Shown here: piece by piece, positions 30,760-38,656 of the stretch
Position numbering within the stretch: position 1 is the stretch's first letter
Layout: the number at the start of each line of letters is the position of its first letter
DNA from: Actinomycetes bacterium
GTDB taxonomy: Bacteria > Actinomycetota > Aquicultoria > Aquicultorales > Aquicultoraceae
Assembly: GCA_021794835.1 (NCBI GenBank)
Contig: JAJYQA010000022.1
Location: 121,525-160,267 of the forward strand
DNA: 38,743 nucleotides
Direction: 5' to 3'
Notes under the pieces: generated by a model
Databases searched by the model: none
The model's input: only the letters and a program-made list of their open reading frames with translations
What the model was told of the DNA's origin: nothing
Made by a program: the position numbers and the translations under genes

Positions 30760-30826
30760 AGGTAACGGCAGTCCATATGCCCATGGTTCCGAGATTACTA
30801 TGATGAAGACAGCGGTTGGAAGTAAG

Positions 30827-31261
30827 ATGAAATTCGCGACGACAAGATTCGGTCTCATTGAGGTTGATGAAGATAAACTCATATGGTTTGTTGACGAAAT
30901 ACCGGGCTTCCCGGAGGCAAGGTCATTTGTGCTAATACCGCATGCGGAGGATAGCCCCTTTAGCTGGCTTCAATCGGTAGAGCGGCCTGAGGTCGCATTC
31001 GTCGTGGTCAATCCCTGGCTGTTTTTTGGGGATTACAAGCCGGTCGTGCACGAAGCTGACCTGGAAAAGTTGGAGATTAAAGATAACCAGGAGGATTCCC
31101 CTGTGGTGTTGTCCATTCTAACCATACCAAGTGATCCGCATAAAATGACTGCTAATTTACAGGCCCCGGTTGTTATTAACCCTAGAAATAACACGGCAAA
31201 GCAGGTTATATTAGTAAATGAGAATTATACAACCAAGCATTTGGTTTTACCCAACCGTTAA
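30827..31261 (+). CDS. fliW: FliW, flagellar assembly factor and CsrA antagonist
   Basis: Binds flagellin and CsrA alternately, coupling flagellin export to its translation. The 144-residue protein has the family pattern: short N-terminal strand (TTRFGLIEVDEDKLIWF), EIPGFPEARSFVLIPH, SPFSWLQSVERPEVAFVVVN, and AKQVILVNENYTTKH. The ATG at 30827 (GGAAG 4 nt upstream) gives the usual short N-terminus; ATGs at 30800 and 30803 would add eight or nine residues and have no SD. It is directly followed by csrA (12 bases), the standard pair. Confidence 0.94.
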   Translation: MKFATTRFGLIEVDEDKLIWFVDEIPGFPEARSFVLIPHAEDSPFSWLQSVERPEVAFVVVNPWLFFGDYKPVVHEADLEKLEIKDNQEDSPVVLSILTIPSDPHKMTANLQAPVVINPRNNTAKQVILVNENYTTKHLVLPNR

Positions 31262-31273
31262 CTAGGAGGGGCA

Positions 31274-31510
31274 ATGCTGGTCCTTACCAGGAAAATCAAC
31301 GAATGCATAAACATCGGCCAAGATATAGAAATATTCGTGGTCGAGATCAAGGATGACCATGTAAAGATCGGCATTAGGGCCCCGAAAGATGTCCCCATCT
31401 ACCGCCAGGAAATCTACAAATCCATCCTGAAGGAAAACGAAATCGCTGCATCCGCCTCAAAATCGGCGCTAGAGAGCGCAAGCAAGGCTATTGCAAACAA
31501 AATTTCCTAA
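31274..31510 (+). CDS. csrA: CsrA, translational repressor of flagellin
   Basis: An RNA-binding homodimer. The core is canonical: MLVLTRKINECINIGQDIEI, then VKIGIRAPKDVPIYRQEIY with the RNA-contacting Arg residues. A Ser/Ala-rich tail to residue 78 makes it slightly longer than E. coli CsrA (61 residues), similar to Gram-positive homologues. AGGAGGGG precedes the ATG. Next to fliW and just upstream of fliC, it most likely represses fliC translation; see the leader hairpin at 31642-31671. Confidence 0.96.
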   Translation: MLVLTRKINECINIGQDIEIFVVEIKDDHVKIGIRAPKDVPIYRQEIYKSILKENEIAASASKSALESASKAIANKIS

Positions 31511-31677: not shown

Positions 31678-32502
31678 ATGGGTTTTTCGATTAATACCAA
31701 CATCGAGGCCATGGACGCACTTCGCAATTTGGGCATAACCCAGAATAGCATGGCCAAGACGATGGAGAGGCTCTCGTCAGGTCTTCGCATCAACCGCGCA
31801 GCCGACGACGCCGCCGGCCTTTCCATTTCGGAGAAACTGAAAAGCCAGGTTAACGGTCTTAACCAGGCTAGTTCAAACGCTCAGGACGCAATTTCCTTAA
31901 TCCAGGTAGCTGAGGGGTCGCTAAATGAGACCCACAGCATTCTTCAGAGGATGAGGGAGCTGGCCGTTCAAGCTGCAAACGATACCTTAGGTAGCGACGA
32001 GAGGAGTGCTATACAGTCTGAGATGAACAGCCTACTCGCTGAGATCGATCGTATCGCCAACACCACTCAATATAGCGACAAGACGCTTCTCAACGGCAGC
32101 TTTGCAGCTACAGCCTTACAATTCCAGATCGGCGCCAACTGCGGTCAGGATATTGCAGTAACTATCGCTACTGCAACTACCGCAGCTCTTACCATCAGCG
32201 GCGTTTCCGTTGGTTCGCACACCTTGGCCAGCCAGGCTATCGTGAGCATTGACAACGCTATCAGCGCGATATCCAATCAAAGGAGCGGCCTTGGCGCTAT
32301 CCAGAACAGGCTGGAGCACACCATCGCAAACTTGGGCGTTAACTCAGAAAACGTCACAGCCGCCGAGTCTCGTATCGTTGACACTGACGTCGCTTCCGAA
32401 ATGGTAAACTTCACTAGGGAGCAGATTCTGTCTCAGACCGGTATGGCAGCTCTATCCCAAGCCAACCAGAGCCGCCAGATAGTTCTGAAGCTTTTCATGT
32501 AG
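31678..32502 (+). CDS. fliC: FliC, flagellin (short form)
   Basis: The filament subunit of 274 residues. Conserved terminal D0/D1 regions are complete: INTNIEAMDALRNLGITQNS, MERLSSGLRINRAADDAAGL, and at the C-terminus AAESRIVDTDVASEMVNFTR with MAALSQANQSRQIVLKLF. The variable centre is reduced to about 50 residues, so little is exposed beyond D1. It has one Cys (QIGANCGQD) where many flagellins have another residue, unusual for a secreted filament protein. AGGAGG precedes the ATG. It has its own sigma-28-like promoter and a strong terminator, so it is a separate transcript. The next gene is a probable flagellin glycosyltransferase. Confidence 0.96.
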   Translation: MGFSINTNIEAMDALRNLGITQNSMAKTMERLSSGLRINRAADDAAGLSISEKLKSQVNGLNQASSNAQDAISLIQVAEGSLNETHSILQRMRELAVQAANDTLGSDERSAIQSEMNSLLAEIDRIANTTQYSDKTLLNGSFAATALQFQIGANCGQDIAVTIATATTAALTISGVSVGSHTLASQAIVSIDNAISAISNQRSGLGAIQNRLEHTIANLGVNSENVTAAESRIVDTDVASEMVNFTREQILSQTGMAALSQANQSRQIVLKLFM

Positions 32503-32522: not shown

Positions 32523-32558
32523 AAAGCGGTTGGGTTAAACCCGGCCGCTTTATTCTTT
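32523..32558 (+). terminator. Rho-independent terminator of fliC
   Basis: AAAGCGG-TTGGGT (32523-32535), loop TAA, ACCCGG-CCGCTTT (32539-32551): a 13-bp stem with two G-U pairs, followed by the T-rich TTATTCTTT overlapping its end. It lies about 20 bases after the fliC stop and is the clearest terminator in the window. Confidence 0.85.
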
Positions 32559-32706: not shown

Positions 32707-35700
32707 ATGGCAAATAATAAGCTCACGAGCATAATTATCCTTGGTTATAACCAGCTTGGGTACACTAAGCTCTGCATCGAGAGCATTTACCGCTATACGA
32801 TTTCTCCATTTGAACTTATCCTTGTCGATAATGGGTCAACAGATGGCACAGCCGAATACGTCGAGTCAATTGTCGGCGCCAAGGTTATCAAGAACAAGGA
32901 GAACCTTGGTTTTGCTAAGGGCTGCAACCAGGGCATCGAGGCGGCTGAAGGCGATTACATATTGTTTCTTAATAACGACGTTATAGTGACCGAGCATTGG
33001 CTGGATAATATGATCGAATGCCTTGAGAGCGACCCGAAGATCGGTATTGTCGGGCCTCGCTCAAATTACGTAAATAGCGCACAGATAATCGATGTAAGTT
33101 ATGACACCATCGAGGGCTTGCACCGTTTTGCCGGGGATTTCAATCGCCAGGGACAAGATAAATGGTTTGAAGTCGATTTGCTAATTGGTTTTTGCATGCT
33201 TATTAAACGTGAAGTTATAGATAAGGTTGGGCTACTGGACGAGCGGTTTGGTCTGGGGAATTTTGAGGACAACGATTTTTGCCTTAGGACAAGAACGGCT
33301 GGATACCGACTGGTATGTGCCGGCAATACCTATATCCACCACTTTGGCAACCGGACTTTTGCAGGCAACCAGGTACCTTATGGGGAGTGGTTGGAAGAAA
33401 ACCTTAAAAAGTTTAACGAAAAATGGGGAAAGCAAACCGAGGAAAGCCACAAAAAAGGCGGTAAAGAAGAAACCGCAGTTCAGGCCGCTGACCCAGACAT
33501 TGCGGACATCTTGACCAGTATCCAAGAAGCTCTTTTTACAAAAGCAAAGCTTGCAAGCAGCTGGTTTGAAGCGCGGCGCGGTAAATTATCCAAACGCTTC
33601 CATCAAGGGCTAACCTACTATATAGATGGAGACTACGGTAAAGCGCTAAAGATATTTGAGGACCTATCGCCAGAGGCATCCTCATTCGGGTACGTGCAAT
33701 ATGCTCTGGCCTTAACGCTCATGATGATGGGGCGATTTAAGGATGCTAAAAGGATTTTAGCTTATGAGCTGAGCAAGCGCGATAACGATATCAACATGCT
33801 CTTGGCGTATGGTGATTGTCTGGTGGCACTGGGTGAGCTCAGTAGCGCCAAGGCTTACTATGATAAGGCCCTTGAAATTAGGCCGTCCAGCATCTCGGCA
33901 CGCATGGGTTTAGTAGTTGTTGAAAGGGTCGAAATGCAGCCAGAGCGATTAAAGTTCATTAAAAACCTCGAGGCTTTAGTTAACTTTAAAATCCAACTGG
34001 CCGTTGAAAATAACGAGCGCCTTTGCGTAACGTATCTTACGATAAACCATGGGATTGCCGGTGGTTCAAAGGTTAATTTTGAGCATATCAATCGCTTAAT
34101 CGAGAGGGGACACAATGTCCATGCTGTTTCCCATTGGCAACAACCCGAGTGGTTCGATTTGCATACCAAAGTAATTACGGTGCCTTTAGGTAAAGAGCTC
34201 AGCGACTACGTCCCGCCGGAAAGCGATGTTGTAGTGGCGACGTTTTGGTCGCAAATGCACGATCTGCTCAAGGCTAAAGGTACGGCACATGTTTACTTTG
34301 TGCAGGGCGATAAGTACTTATTTGAAAAAGATAAAGAAAAGAGAACGGATAACTACCAGCCGGTAATACAAAAGCTAGCGGATGCCAACCACTACCTTCC
34401 GGCTCCTCTGTTTGTTGTCTCCGAGGGACTAAAAGGTCTCTTACGGAGCTATTATGATCGAGAGAGCACCGTAATCCCGGGCGCGATTGATTTAGATGTA
34501 TTTAAGCCTGGGCAGCGGCGCAAGAAGAAAAAGCCTAAGTTGTTAATGGTCGGATCGGATGACCTTGAGTTTAAAGGCCTCCATTTTATAAGCGAAGCTT
34601 TCCAGCGAATAAAGCGTACCCGTGATGTTGAGGTCGTTTGGGTTTCACCTAAGCCAAAGACATCCTCGCACATCAAGTGTGACACATTTGTTCAGGCCCC
34701 CTCCCAATTGGAGTTGGCTAAAATATATGCCGATTGCGATGTTTTTGTTTCCGCTTCTACCTATGATGCCTTTCCGCTACCACCGCTGGAGGCGATGGCC
34801 TGTGGCACTCCAGCTGTGGTAACGATTAATGAAGGAACTAAAAGCTACATTGAAAACGGGGTTAACTGCCTGACGGTACCCATACGGGATTCGGGCGCTA
34901 TATTCAATGCCGTCAATCGCATACTAGACAACGATCTGCTACGAGAAAGGATTATAAAAGGCGGTCTTGCAACAGCTGCCAAATATAACTGGAGGAGAAC
35001 GATAGATATACTTGAAGAAAAGCTCTGGAATTTAGCCATGTTCCCGAAGGTCCCGTTTGTCGATGTGCTGCCGGAAGAGGTCAAGGAGGAAGAAGCCGGA
35101 CAAATCGAAGCCGAGGGTACTCCCGGCGCTATAGCAACAAGCGACTATTACAATTTCCCGCGCACCGATGTTTTGGAGCTTGTCCCGGCCGATGCAAAAC
35201 GAATTCTTGACGTGGGCTGTGCTGCCGGCGTCCTTGGCAAAGCGTTAAAGGAGCGTGGAGCGACCGAGGTAGTGGGCGTAGAGGTCGTCAAGGAGGTCGC
35301 TAATGAGGCGAAAAAGTATCTCGATAGGGTAATCGTTGGCGACATAGAGCACATTGAGCTTGACTATCCAGAGGGTTATTTCGATTGCATAGTTTTGGCC
35401 GATGTGCTCGAACACCTATATAATCCCTGGCAAGCGCTAGCAAAGCTCAAGCGACTACTTTCTGACGCTGGAAAAGTGGTTTGCAGCATCCCCAATATCG
35501 GCCATGCATTCGTATTGCGCAATCTTCTTAACGGCACCTGGAAGTATGAGGAGGCCGGCATACTCGATATCACGCACCTGCGTTTTTTTACCCTTGAGAG
35601 TGCCTTCGCCTTGTTGATGTCGGCCGGGTTTGAAATCGATGGTGTAATCGATAAGGTTGTCTGCGGCCCGGATGAAGAGGACTTTATCGCTAAGCTTCAA

Positions 35701-37854
35701 TCAAGTGGGCTGGCTAACGATGCATGTCTAAAGCATGCTTCGGCGTACCAGTTCTTGCTTACTGCGACACCGCTAAATAGCAATGCGCGCCCTTCCGGCA
35801 CGGCTGATTTGGATGTTGAGATTGGTGTAGGCAGCATGGCAGAAGAGCCTTCTATAAAGCCCAAGCTCTCATTGGCTATGATCGTTAAAAACGAGGCGGA
35901 TAATTTAGGCCGCTGCCTAAAAAGCGTAGAGGATGTCGTCGATGAGATAATTGTGGTTGATACCGGCTCTACTGATGATACGGTTGCGATCGCGGAAAAC
36001 TTTGGTGCAAAAGTGATCCGCTACCCGTGGCAAAACGACTTTTCTGCCGCAAGAAACGTCTCCCTTGACCACTCAACCGGTGAGTGGGTGATGTTTCTTG
36101 ATGCCGACGAAGAGCTGGTTAAGGAAGACATTCCCGAGCTAAAAGAGCTTCTTCAGTCAACACAGCAAGAGGGATTTTTCTTTAACGAGTTTAGTTTTGT
36201 GGGCGAAAAAGAAGACGATGGTGGCGTAGTTAATCCTGCCTTTAGGCTTTGGAGAAACAAACCTGAATACCGGTTTACAGGTGCCCTGCATGAGCAGATA
36301 GTTGCTAAAGTGCAGTCGCATAACCCCAATGTTGGTTTTTCCGGCGTGCGCATTAAGCATTATGGTTACTTAAACAAGGTAACTACGGGAAAGGATAAGA
36401 TTAAACGTAACCTGGACATACTTTTAAAAGAGGTCAAGGATAAACCAAATGATTCCTTTACCAGGTTTAACCTTGGGGTTGAATACCTACGGCTTTCTGA
36501 TTACGACAAGGCGCTAGAGCAGTACAAAGCAGCCTTTGCGAACCTATCGAGCCTTAGTGCTGCGTACGCTTCAGTTCTAATAAGGAACATCGCCTTGTGT
36601 TTAAAAGAACTCGGCCGGCGTGAAGAGGCTTTAAAGGTTTTAAGGGATGCAAAAGAAGCGTATCCAGATTATACCGACTTGTTTTACCTCGAGGGTTTGG
36701 TTTATTTAGAGGATAAAGACCCCTTAACTGCAATTAAATGCTTTAAGACATGCCTAGACATGGGCCCGTCTGGAAAGACTCATATAAGCCAGAGCGGGGT
36801 GGGCGGGCATTTAGCAGCGTACGCTCTCGGCCGCGCCTATAGACTGGTTGGGGATGAAGTAGAAGCGGTGGTTTCATTTAAAAAATCCCTTATTTATAAT
36901 TCTAGGGATTGCTCTTCTCTCTCTGAACTAGGCTTAATGCTTGTCCGCCGAGAGAGCCCAGGCGACCTTAAGCGATTTCTGGAATCTCTTGCTGATTTAT
37001 CTTCGGAGGATGTATTGTTTACGCTCTCATCCATTTTTAGCCAAGGTAGGTATTATGAGATTAGCCTGGAATACTTAAATAAACTTTCTAGTAACAATTC
37101 TAATCCAGCGCGAGCAGCACTTTTAACCGGAGAAGCCCTTCTAAATCTAAATAGGTACCAAGAAGCAGTTGTTCATCTATTGAAGGTTCCCAAGTCTAGC
37201 CAGTTTTTCCGGGTGGCATCGCTGGACAGAGCTATCTGCCATTTGCTGCTGGCCCAGCGTGAAGATGCGGTAGCGGCGCTCGACGTCACCAAGAATGACG
37301 AGGGATTCCATCTAATTCACGTCATTTACAAAGCGGTTGTAGATTTAGTGGATGGGAAAAAATCCAGATTGTTCATCAAAGACGAGCAAAAAAAGCAGGC
37401 GTACCGAGTCATTGCAGATATCTTGGGTAAGTTTCTTGAGCTACAAGAATTTGAGGTTTTTGAAAAAGCCATCGCCGTTCTTGGGCAGCTAAACCTTTCT
37501 GCAGGTGAGAGAAGCCTCTTTCTGGGAAAGGTTTACTATGATGCCGGGTATAACGAGCTAGCTGTCGAGGAGCTAATCCGCGCGTATGAGAGCGGAAGTG
37601 CCGATGCCGAGGCATTCTTTATACTGGGAAGAACAGCTTTGAATAACGAGTTCTATGAAGAAGCAAAAACGTTTTTCCTTGAAGCCTTAAATGGCGGGAT
37701 CGAGGAGCCTACCCTTTACATATCTTTAGGGCGCACGTTTATAAAGCTAGGTGAAATAGAGCGTGCAGTTGATATACTTGATATGGGAGCTAGAAAATAC
37801 CCCGATTCGCCGTTTATCAACGATATAAGGCAGAGCATCAGCGCACTGGTATAA
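32707..37854 (+). CDS. Giant GT2-TPR-GT4-methyltransferase-GT2-TPR protein, probable flagellin glycosyltransferase
   Basis: A 1715-residue cytoplasmic protein. Visible modules: GT2 glycosyltransferase (about 7-270; DNGSTDGTA at 41-49, DxD-like NND at 89-91); helical TPR-like region (about 295-425); GT4 GT-B transferase (about 437-790; its EX7E motif reads D-x7-E in DAFPLPPLEAMACG); class I SAM methyltransferase (about 815-1030; DVGCAAG at 835-841, DVLEHL near 900); second GT2 (about 1053-1265; VVDTGSTDD, DAD at 1132-1134); and TPR repeats (about 1265-1715). No signal peptide. It follows fliC and its terminator. TPR-linked transferases are known to glycosylate flagellin in other bacteria, so building and capping (methylating) a short glycan on FliC is the best guess. 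GGAGG precedes the ATG. Confidence 0.85.
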   Translation: MANNKLTSIIILGYNQLGYTKLCIESIYRYTISPFELILVDNGSTDGTAEYVESIVGAKVIKNKENLGFAKGCNQGIEAAEGDYILFLNNDVIVTEHWLDNMIECLESDPKIGIVGPRSNYVNSAQIIDVSYDTIEGLHRFAGDFNRQGQDKWFEVDLLIGFCMLIKREVIDKVGLLDERFGLGNFEDNDFCLRTRTAGYRLVCAGNTYIHHFGNRTFAGNQVPYGEWLEENLKKFNEKWGKQTEESHKKGGKEETAVQAADPDIADILTSIQEALFTKAKLASSWFEARRGKLSKRFHQGLTYYIDGDYGKALKIFEDLSPEASSFGYVQYALALTLMMMGRFKDAKRILAYELSKRDNDINMLLAYGDCLVALGELSSAKAYYDKALEIRPSSISARMGLVVVERVEMQPERLKFIKNLEALVNFKIQLAVENNERLCVTYLTINHGIAGGSKVNFEHINRLIERGHNVHAVSHWQQPEWFDLHTKVITVPLGKELSDYVPPESDVVVATFWSQMHDLLKAKGTAHVYFVQGDKYLFEKDKEKRTDNYQPVIQKLADANHYLPAPLFVVSEGLKGLLRSYYDRESTVIPGAIDLDVFKPGQRRKKKKPKLLMVGSDDLEFKGLHFISEAFQRIKRTRDVEVVWVSPKPKTSSHIKCDTFVQAPSQLELAKIYADCDVFVSASTYDAFPLPPLEAMACGTPAVVTINEGTKSYIENGVNCLTVPIRDSGAIFNAVNRILDNDLLRERIIKGGLATAAKYNWRRTIDILEEKLWNLAMFPKVPFVDVLPEEVKEEEAGQIEAEGTPGAIATSDYYNFPRTDVLELVPADAKRILDVGCAAGVLGKALKERGATEVVGVEVVKEVANEAKKYLDRVIVGDIEHIELDYPEGYFDCIVLADVLEHLYNPWQALAKLKRLLSDAGKVVCSIPNIGHAFVLRNLLNGTWKYEEAGILDITHLRFFTLESAFALLMSAGFEIDGVIDKVVCGPDEEDFIAKLQSSGLANDACLKHASAYQFLLTATPLNSNARPSGTADLDVEIGVGSMAEEPSIKPKLSLAMIVKNEADNLGRCLKSVEDVVDEIIVVDTGSTDDTVAIAENFGAKVIRYPWQNDFSAARNVSLDHSTGEWVMFLDADEELVKEDIPELKELLQSTQQEGFFFNEFSFVGEKEDDGGVVNPAFRLWRNKPEYRFTGALHEQIVAKVQSHNPNVGFSGVRIKHYGYLNKVTTGKDKIKRNLDILLKEVKDKPNDSFTRFNLGVEYLRLSDYDKALEQYKAAFANLSSLSAAYASVLIRNIALCLKELGRREEALKVLRDAKEAYPDYTDLFYLEGLVYLEDKDPLTAIKCFKTCLDMGPSGKTHISQSGVGGHLAAYALGRAYRLVGDEVEAVVSFKKSLIYNSRDCSSLSELGLMLVRRESPGDLKRFLESLADLSSEDVLFTLSSIFSQGRYYEISLEYLNKLSSNNSNPARAALLTGEALLNLNRYQEAVVHLLKVPKSSQFFRVASLDRAICHLLLAQREDAVAALDVTKNDEGFHLIHVIYKAVVDLVDGKKSRLFIKDEQKKQAYRVIADILGKFLELQEFEVFEKAIAVLGQLNLSAGERSLFLGKVYYDAGYNELAVEELIRAYESGSADAEAFFILGRTALNNEFYEEAKTFFLEALNGGIEEPTLYISLGRTFIKLGEIERAVDILDMGARKYPDSPFINDIRQSISALV

Positions 37855-38137: not shown

Positions 38138-38656
38138 ATGGTAAAGCAAACCTTACGTTGGCGGCTATTGGAACTCTCAACTCTTGGATTCATTCTTCTG
38201 CTTTTTATCCTACTTTCAAGCATCTGCAAACCAGCGAGTTACCTTGCCGCAAAATTTCTGGTTGGTCAAACCGAAGTATATGCTGCAGACTGGGCCTCTC
38301 CACGGTTTGATGTGGCGCAAACCGGTTATAACCGCGACGGTATTGTGTTAATGCCGCTTGATCTTAGCTGGCAAAGGGGAGCCTTTTATATTTACGATGA
38401 GGACAGGACAAGACCGCTTATAGTCGGAGATAAAGTTTTACTTGGTGTAAATGACTGGTACAATGGGGTAACTACCATATATGCCCTTAGCGTTTACGGT
38501 GGATCAACTATCTGGCAATACAATCCTAGCGATAAGTCTATAAGTGGTCTAGTGTCTGCAAATGGCAAGGTTTATTTTTCTGCACAGAATCCTACTACTT
38601 CTGCTGTCAAGCTATATGCTCCTGACTTCCGCACCCCCACTTTTTTAAAACAATAA
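38138..38656 (+). pseudogene. Secreted beta-propeller (PQQ-like repeat) protein, apparently truncated by an insertion
   Basis: The N-terminus has a membrane/signal segment (about residues 14-32), then the exported region starting near ADWASPRFDVAQTGYNRDG, typical of PQQ-like beta-propeller proteins. Two blade-like units follow (GDKVLLGVNDWYNGVTTIYA with ALSVYGGSTIWQYN; SANGKVYFSAQNPTTSAVKL). The frame then loses the pattern after KLYA (about 38619) and stops at residue 172, too short to close a propeller. A transposase-like N-terminus begins 58 bases later, so the last dozen codons are probably insertion-sequence DNA. GGGG precedes the ATG. The substrate of such proteins is unknown. Confidence 0.55.

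Follow-up and report, generated by a model that had tools for sequence, protein, structure and literature searches.

Among the described flagellin glycosyltransferases, GmaR of Listeria monocytogenes (PDB 22ao, 7x9r, 7x9s) transfers GlcNAc to flagellin; its GT domain forms the N-terminus, with TPR, linker and antirepressor domains behind it (PMC9638930). With 637 aa, it has one catalytic domain, neither extender nor methyltransferase, and the repressor MogR as partner. In C. difficile type B (CDR20291_0241-0243), GlcNAc is attached by the product of the gene behind fliC; the product of the following gene, a GT2 enzyme with a methyltransferase domain, attaches two rhamnoses and has been suggested to methylate them (PMC5207246). 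A third case is the soluble FlmG of Caulobacter, in which a TPR domain that binds flagellin is joined to a GT domain (PMC7591256). The protein described here resembles GmaR in the succession of GT2 and TPR/helical solenoid, in shared motifs, fold and flagellar role. With the C. difficile system it shares the position directly after fliC and the kinds of parts, and by analogy probably also GlcNAc initiation and a two-sugar extension as by the GT2 enzyme with methyltransferase domain; there, however, the proteins are separate, rhamnose genes lie nearby and GT3 provides a sulfonated peptidylamido terminus. FlmG differs by its GT-B fold, the TPR placed first and pseudaminic acid as donor, an N-terminal TPR plus C-terminal GT-B layout that the present protein does not have. 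With a probability of about 0.68, we read it as a single-chain cytoplasmic pathway of flagellin O-glycosylation, comprising a GmaR-type initiator, extenders and a methyltransferase.

The window, i.e., the whole stretch of 38,743 nucleotides that was analysed, belongs to the 2.0-Mb genome (G000) of an uncultured groundwater bacterium of the class Aquicultoria in the deep Actinomycetota, with relatives named Candidatus Aquicultor or Actinomycetota. Aquicultoria represent a basal flagellated group of Actinobacteria (PMC10746217). The relevant features are as follows.

30800..31261, + strand: fliW, by flagellar context; gene order kept in G001 and G002
31274..31510, + strand: csrA, by flagellar context; gene order kept in G001 and G002
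31678..32502, + strand: fliC, 274-aa flagellin (Pfam Flagellin_N and Flagellin_C; alignment), proposed acceptor with the Ser/Thr-rich centre IAVTIATATTAALTISGVSVGSHTLAS
32523..32551, + strand: terminator-like 13-bp hairpin separating fliC from the enzyme gene, with a counterpart in G002
32707..37854, + strand: six-module glycosyltransferase/methyltransferase gene, ATG start, 1715 aa without internal stop; four full-length orthologues
32707..33441 (residues 1-245), + strand: GT2-A domain, WbbL-like, probable chain extender (Pfam Glycos_transf_2)
33595..33996 (residues ~297-430), + strand: TPR region 1 (Pfam TPR_16/TPR_2)
34018..35034 (residues 438-776), + strand: GT4 domain of GT-B fold, probable chain extender (Pfam Glyco_trans_1_4, E 7e-22)
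34765..34791, + strand: E-x7-E motif of GT4 in its D-x7-E form (D687, E695), from alignments
35158..35781 (residues 818-1025), + strand: complete class I SAM methyltransferase (Pfam Methyltransf_23)
35860..36411 (residues 1052-1235), + strand: GT2-B domain, GmaR-type, proposed initiating transferase (match to GmaR 22ao_A, motifs kept)
36412..37851 (residues 1236-1715), + strand: TPR region 2/helical solenoid, proposed flagellin-binding platform (7x9r by sequence; AF2 model and Foldseek)

The initial annotation had described two GT2 domains, a GT4 domain, a SAM methyltransferase and two TPR regions in one chain, and the intact reading frame and the Pfam domains bear this out, the order being GT2-TPR-GT4-SAM methyltransferase-GT2-TPR. 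Glycos_transf_2 (E 3e-56) covers two stretches, residues 8-174 and, as second GT2, about 1059-1160; between and behind them lie TPR (about 332-403), Glyco_trans_1_4 (603-752), Methyltransf_23 (821-977) and further TPRs from 1236 to the end. None of the best 25 NCBIfam matches of the 1715-aa protein reaches its curated cut-off, including SunS with 97.6 bits against 350. In a full-length comparison, the orthologues from four other genomes showed 59-67% identity, and since these independent genomes share length and module order, the fusion is no assembly artefact. Conservation is lowest in TPR region 1 (48-53% identity versus 57-79% in the catalytic modules). Orthologue alignments further revealed D41 and D91 of GT2-A to be invariant, and its E187/D190 motif is present. 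For GT4, the previously noticed D-x7-E motif was recovered as D687-x7-E695; at its first position, three of the five family orthologues carry D, a fourth (G005) has E and the remaining one G, while the loci L062 and L074 likewise show the canonical E. Activity of this domain is thus uncertain, but aspartate is a mild change. The nearest solved relative of the methyltransferase module in a PDB sequence search was 3cc8 (E 4.7e-45). The N-terminal half, modelled with AF2 from 5 sequences, reached a pLDDT of 48.7, and this poor model was set aside.

By sequence and modelled fold, the C-terminal third, composed of GT2-B and helical repeats, is a GmaR-type enzyme. Residues 1046-1247 found GmaR 22ao_A as best PDB match (E 9.8e-39), and residues 1192-1458 matched the C-terminal structure of GmaR, 7x9r (E 5e-21, sequence search of the PDB). 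All GmaR motifs, i.e., VDTGSTD, W..DFSAARN, DADE, HEQ and HYGYL, are present in the protein. An AF2 model of residues 1041-1715, built from 29 sequences (pLDDT 89.7), retrieved 7x9r in Foldseek with a TMt of 0.66 over 490 columns, and SunS/ThuS were matched as well. The latter are S-glycosyltransferases acting on bacteriocin cysteines; they share the GT2 fold, the C-terminal helical region and a similar structure, but differ in substrate and have no flagellar role.

The gene had been placed after fliC and a terminator, and both are found upstream: fliC ends 204 bp before the enzyme gene, and the hairpin in between recurs near-identically at the equivalent place in the congener G002 (L038:7511-7545). 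The host order is flgM-flgN-flgK-flgL-fliW-csrA-fliC followed by the six-module gene, and the segment flgK-flgL-fliW-csrA-fliC is common to G001 and G002. A search for the FliA-type promoter consensus gave no match anywhere in the window.

To survey relatives, genome contigs were searched with an alignment query, a single-sequence query having given no match. Within the 36 genomes of the class, every one of the 11 host-family genomes carried the GT2-TPR C-terminal part. Five of these (G000, G001, G002, G003 and G005) encode the full six-module protein, and in the other six it is split or rearranged. A sixth six-module copy of 1709 aa (L062, MAGV01000021.1) follows fliC directly on a 7.4-kb contig outside the host family, which ends inside a second GmaR-like GT2 and is filed under the archaeon Methanosuratincola petrocarbonis; because of the bacterial flagellin it carries, this is very probably a mis-binned bacterial contig. 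A related 1855-aa fusion of GT4 and GmaR-type GT2-TPR lies between fliC and fliD on a Bacillota contig (L074), and no methyltransferase domain was detected in it. More distant GT2-TPR homologues in Bacillota reside in non-flagellar arrays: tandem sets of 3-4 genes (~660, 585, 500 and 530 aa) were seen in Desulfosporosinus, Sporomusa and Desulforamulus (e.g., L070, L078, L086-L090, L094-L108 and others), with no flagellar genes detected nearby. A tree of the GT2-B/TPR part sets most flagellar-group sequences apart from these arrays (support 98/99), except for the long-branched flagellar rows L171 and L172, which group on the non-flagellar side. The L062 copy adjoins the host family with moderate support (87/88). 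Within the family, the five fused proteins group together (100/97), and so do the split ones (96/84). Most simply, the family would have started from the fused form, with the split form arising later.

The enzyme is encoded in a flagellar locus in all 11 host-family genomes as well as in L062, L065, L074 and the f3 genomes. Its exact place varies: in G000 and G002 the gene immediately follows fliC, and in G001 one methyltransferase gene stands between the two; the gene precedes flaG-fliD-fliS in G005, sits beside flhF in G003, and is found between fliD-fliS and flgB/fliF in the split forms, the contig of G007 holding downstream flagellar genes only. Neither fliC nor fliD was found in the genomes of G003 and G007, for all that the gene lies in a flagellar locus there. 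Across 397 genomes of Actinomycetota, 31 carry the GT2-B/TPR part at an E-value of at most 1e-40, and flagellin is encoded in 23 of these versus 36 of the 366 others (odds ratio 26, p 4e-15, with phylogeny ignored). Distant GT2-TPR homologues also turned up in a few genomes for which flagellin was not found (G015, G030, G034, G035 and G336). Because of these genomes and the non-flagellar Bacillota arrays, the fold alone is no proof of substrate. The Bacillota arrays, together with the generic nature of GT2-A, GT4 and the methyltransferase, would fit another surface protein or a polysaccharide as target, with the flagellar location arising by chance. We consider that improbable, as the flagellar neighbourhood stays constant despite rearranged module order, the association with flagellin extends over the phylum, and the clade is separate from the non-flagellar arrays. 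An O-antigen or capsule setting, which the initial annotation had named as contrary evidence, is not where the clade homologues mostly occur, although the distant Bacillota relatives do lie outside flagellar loci; a capsule/O-antigen role was rejected on gene context. A regulator like GmaR, i.e., an antirepressor of flagellar genes for which glycosylation is secondary, appears more improbable still: the fold match does cover the antirepressor region (7x9r, 7x9s), but the MogR DNA-binding domain (PF12181) found no match in the host genome, with control genomes equally silent, and outside the host family conservation within the C-terminal half is weakest in the C-terminal repeats (26-35%). A link of the enzyme to flagellin is strongly supported by the 11 of 11 flagellar loci, the phylum-wide co-occurrence and GmaR as nearest solved relative.

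On the relation between platform and catalysis, the host family offers a natural experiment, with fused intact, fused lost-motif and split lost-motif members. Motif residues of GT2-B are lost in the split-gene G004 and G006-G010 and in the fused G003 (GT2-B rows L058-L061, L049 and L057, corresponding to G007, G006/G009/G010, G004 and G003), with the repeat half kept. Here, HEQ is changed to REQ, QEQ, KEQ or AGP or is lost, ARN reads AGN, ARG or AAN, and in G004 DTGSTD and DAD are damaged, too. In GT2-B, fused copies (family and L062) share 64-79% identity with the window protein and split forms 29-52%, the repeat half of the latter retaining 38-53%. Flagellins differ as well, being ~490 aa long and of a different type in the split g5 genomes versus 274-288 aa in fused forms. 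Persistence of the repeats where the GT2-B motifs are damaged suggests a role of its own for the repeat platform. As motif residues were lost while the repeat half was kept, flagellin modification may proceed without GT2-B in those genomes; GT2-A or GT4 could then form the first bond, with GT2-B/TPR acting mainly as flagellin-binding scaffold or extender. For the window protein this seems rather unlikely, since the motifs are intact here and in G001, G002, G005, L062, L065, L074, G012 and G024, conservation is highest in GT2-B throughout such intact-motif lineages, and the closest solved relative of GT2-B acts as initiator on flagellin.

Initiation by GT2-B is consequently retained in the single-chain pathway that we favour. 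By analogy with the TPRs of FlmG, the repeat platform (residues 1236-1715) would bind flagellin in the cytoplasm before export, and GT2-B would place the first sugar, GlcNAc if GmaR is a guide, on Ser/Thr in the exposed middle of the short flagellin. GT2-A and GT4 could then add one or two more sugars and the methyltransferase O-methylate the glycan, giving a product that may resemble the methylated core, HexNAc-deoxyHex-deoxyHex, found on type B flagellin of C. difficile. Fusion would hold the extenders near platform-bound flagellin at a fixed ratio, and the terminator after fliC could limit the amount of enzyme compared with flagellin. Of the flagellin multi-step pathway originally suggested, the flagellin link stands on strong ground, and the multi-step character is likely, because a GmaR-type initiator, extenders and a methyltransferase occur together. 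As to its donor sugars, neither RmlC nor NeuB is clearly present in G000: searches there gave a distant 156-aa RmlC-like match for dTDP-rhamnose supply and weak partial NeuB matches (E 1e-11, 254-aa frame) for a nonulosonate synthase (NeuB/PseI). RmlC was found in G002, G003 and G005 (E 1e-67 or better) and NeuB in G004 (E 3e-87). A Maf/nonulosonate reading was rejected for lack of a clear NeuB in G000.

A more specific and tentative idea, to which we give less credence, is a one-protein assembly line, in which flagellin is clamped on the platform, GT2-B initiates, GT2-A/GT4 extend and the methyltransferase terminates, and the platform persists in sister lineages as an adaptor that lost catalysis once the chain was split. 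If flagellin stayed clamped through all steps, the fused architecture would therefore set glycan length and methylation. With or without such clamping, an entire flagellin glycan pathway would reside in one soluble chain, providing a compact system to study or engineer protein O-glycosylation and extending GmaR-type flagellin transferases to deep-branching Actinomycetota.

What other bacteria distribute over several genes is here probably united in one polypeptide. The initial annotation knew of no such described system, and this holds for the arrangement; the kind is known, and the precedents of GmaR and C. difficile type B had been missed. Given these precedents, the novelty is a new arrangement and not a new kind. 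No published description of the six-module protein was found in the literature searched, a weak indication, as subscription journals were mostly outside it.

Some further genes were noted nearby and in relatives. Near the contig end, the window holds a 172-aa reading frame with an early stop (38138-38656), which shares 79% identity with the beginning of a 1602-aa protein of G002; the stop may reflect frameshift, decay or assembly error. The methyltransferase gene between fliC and the six-module gene in G001 (L040:8996-9850) encodes an extra stand-alone SAM methyltransferase. In G024, a 1355-aa protein encoded directly before fliC (L054:4178-8245) combines a CDP-glycerol phosphotransferase-like part, a methyltransferase and two GT2 domains, and the first residues encoded by a gene further upstream resemble those of a NeuB-type synthase.
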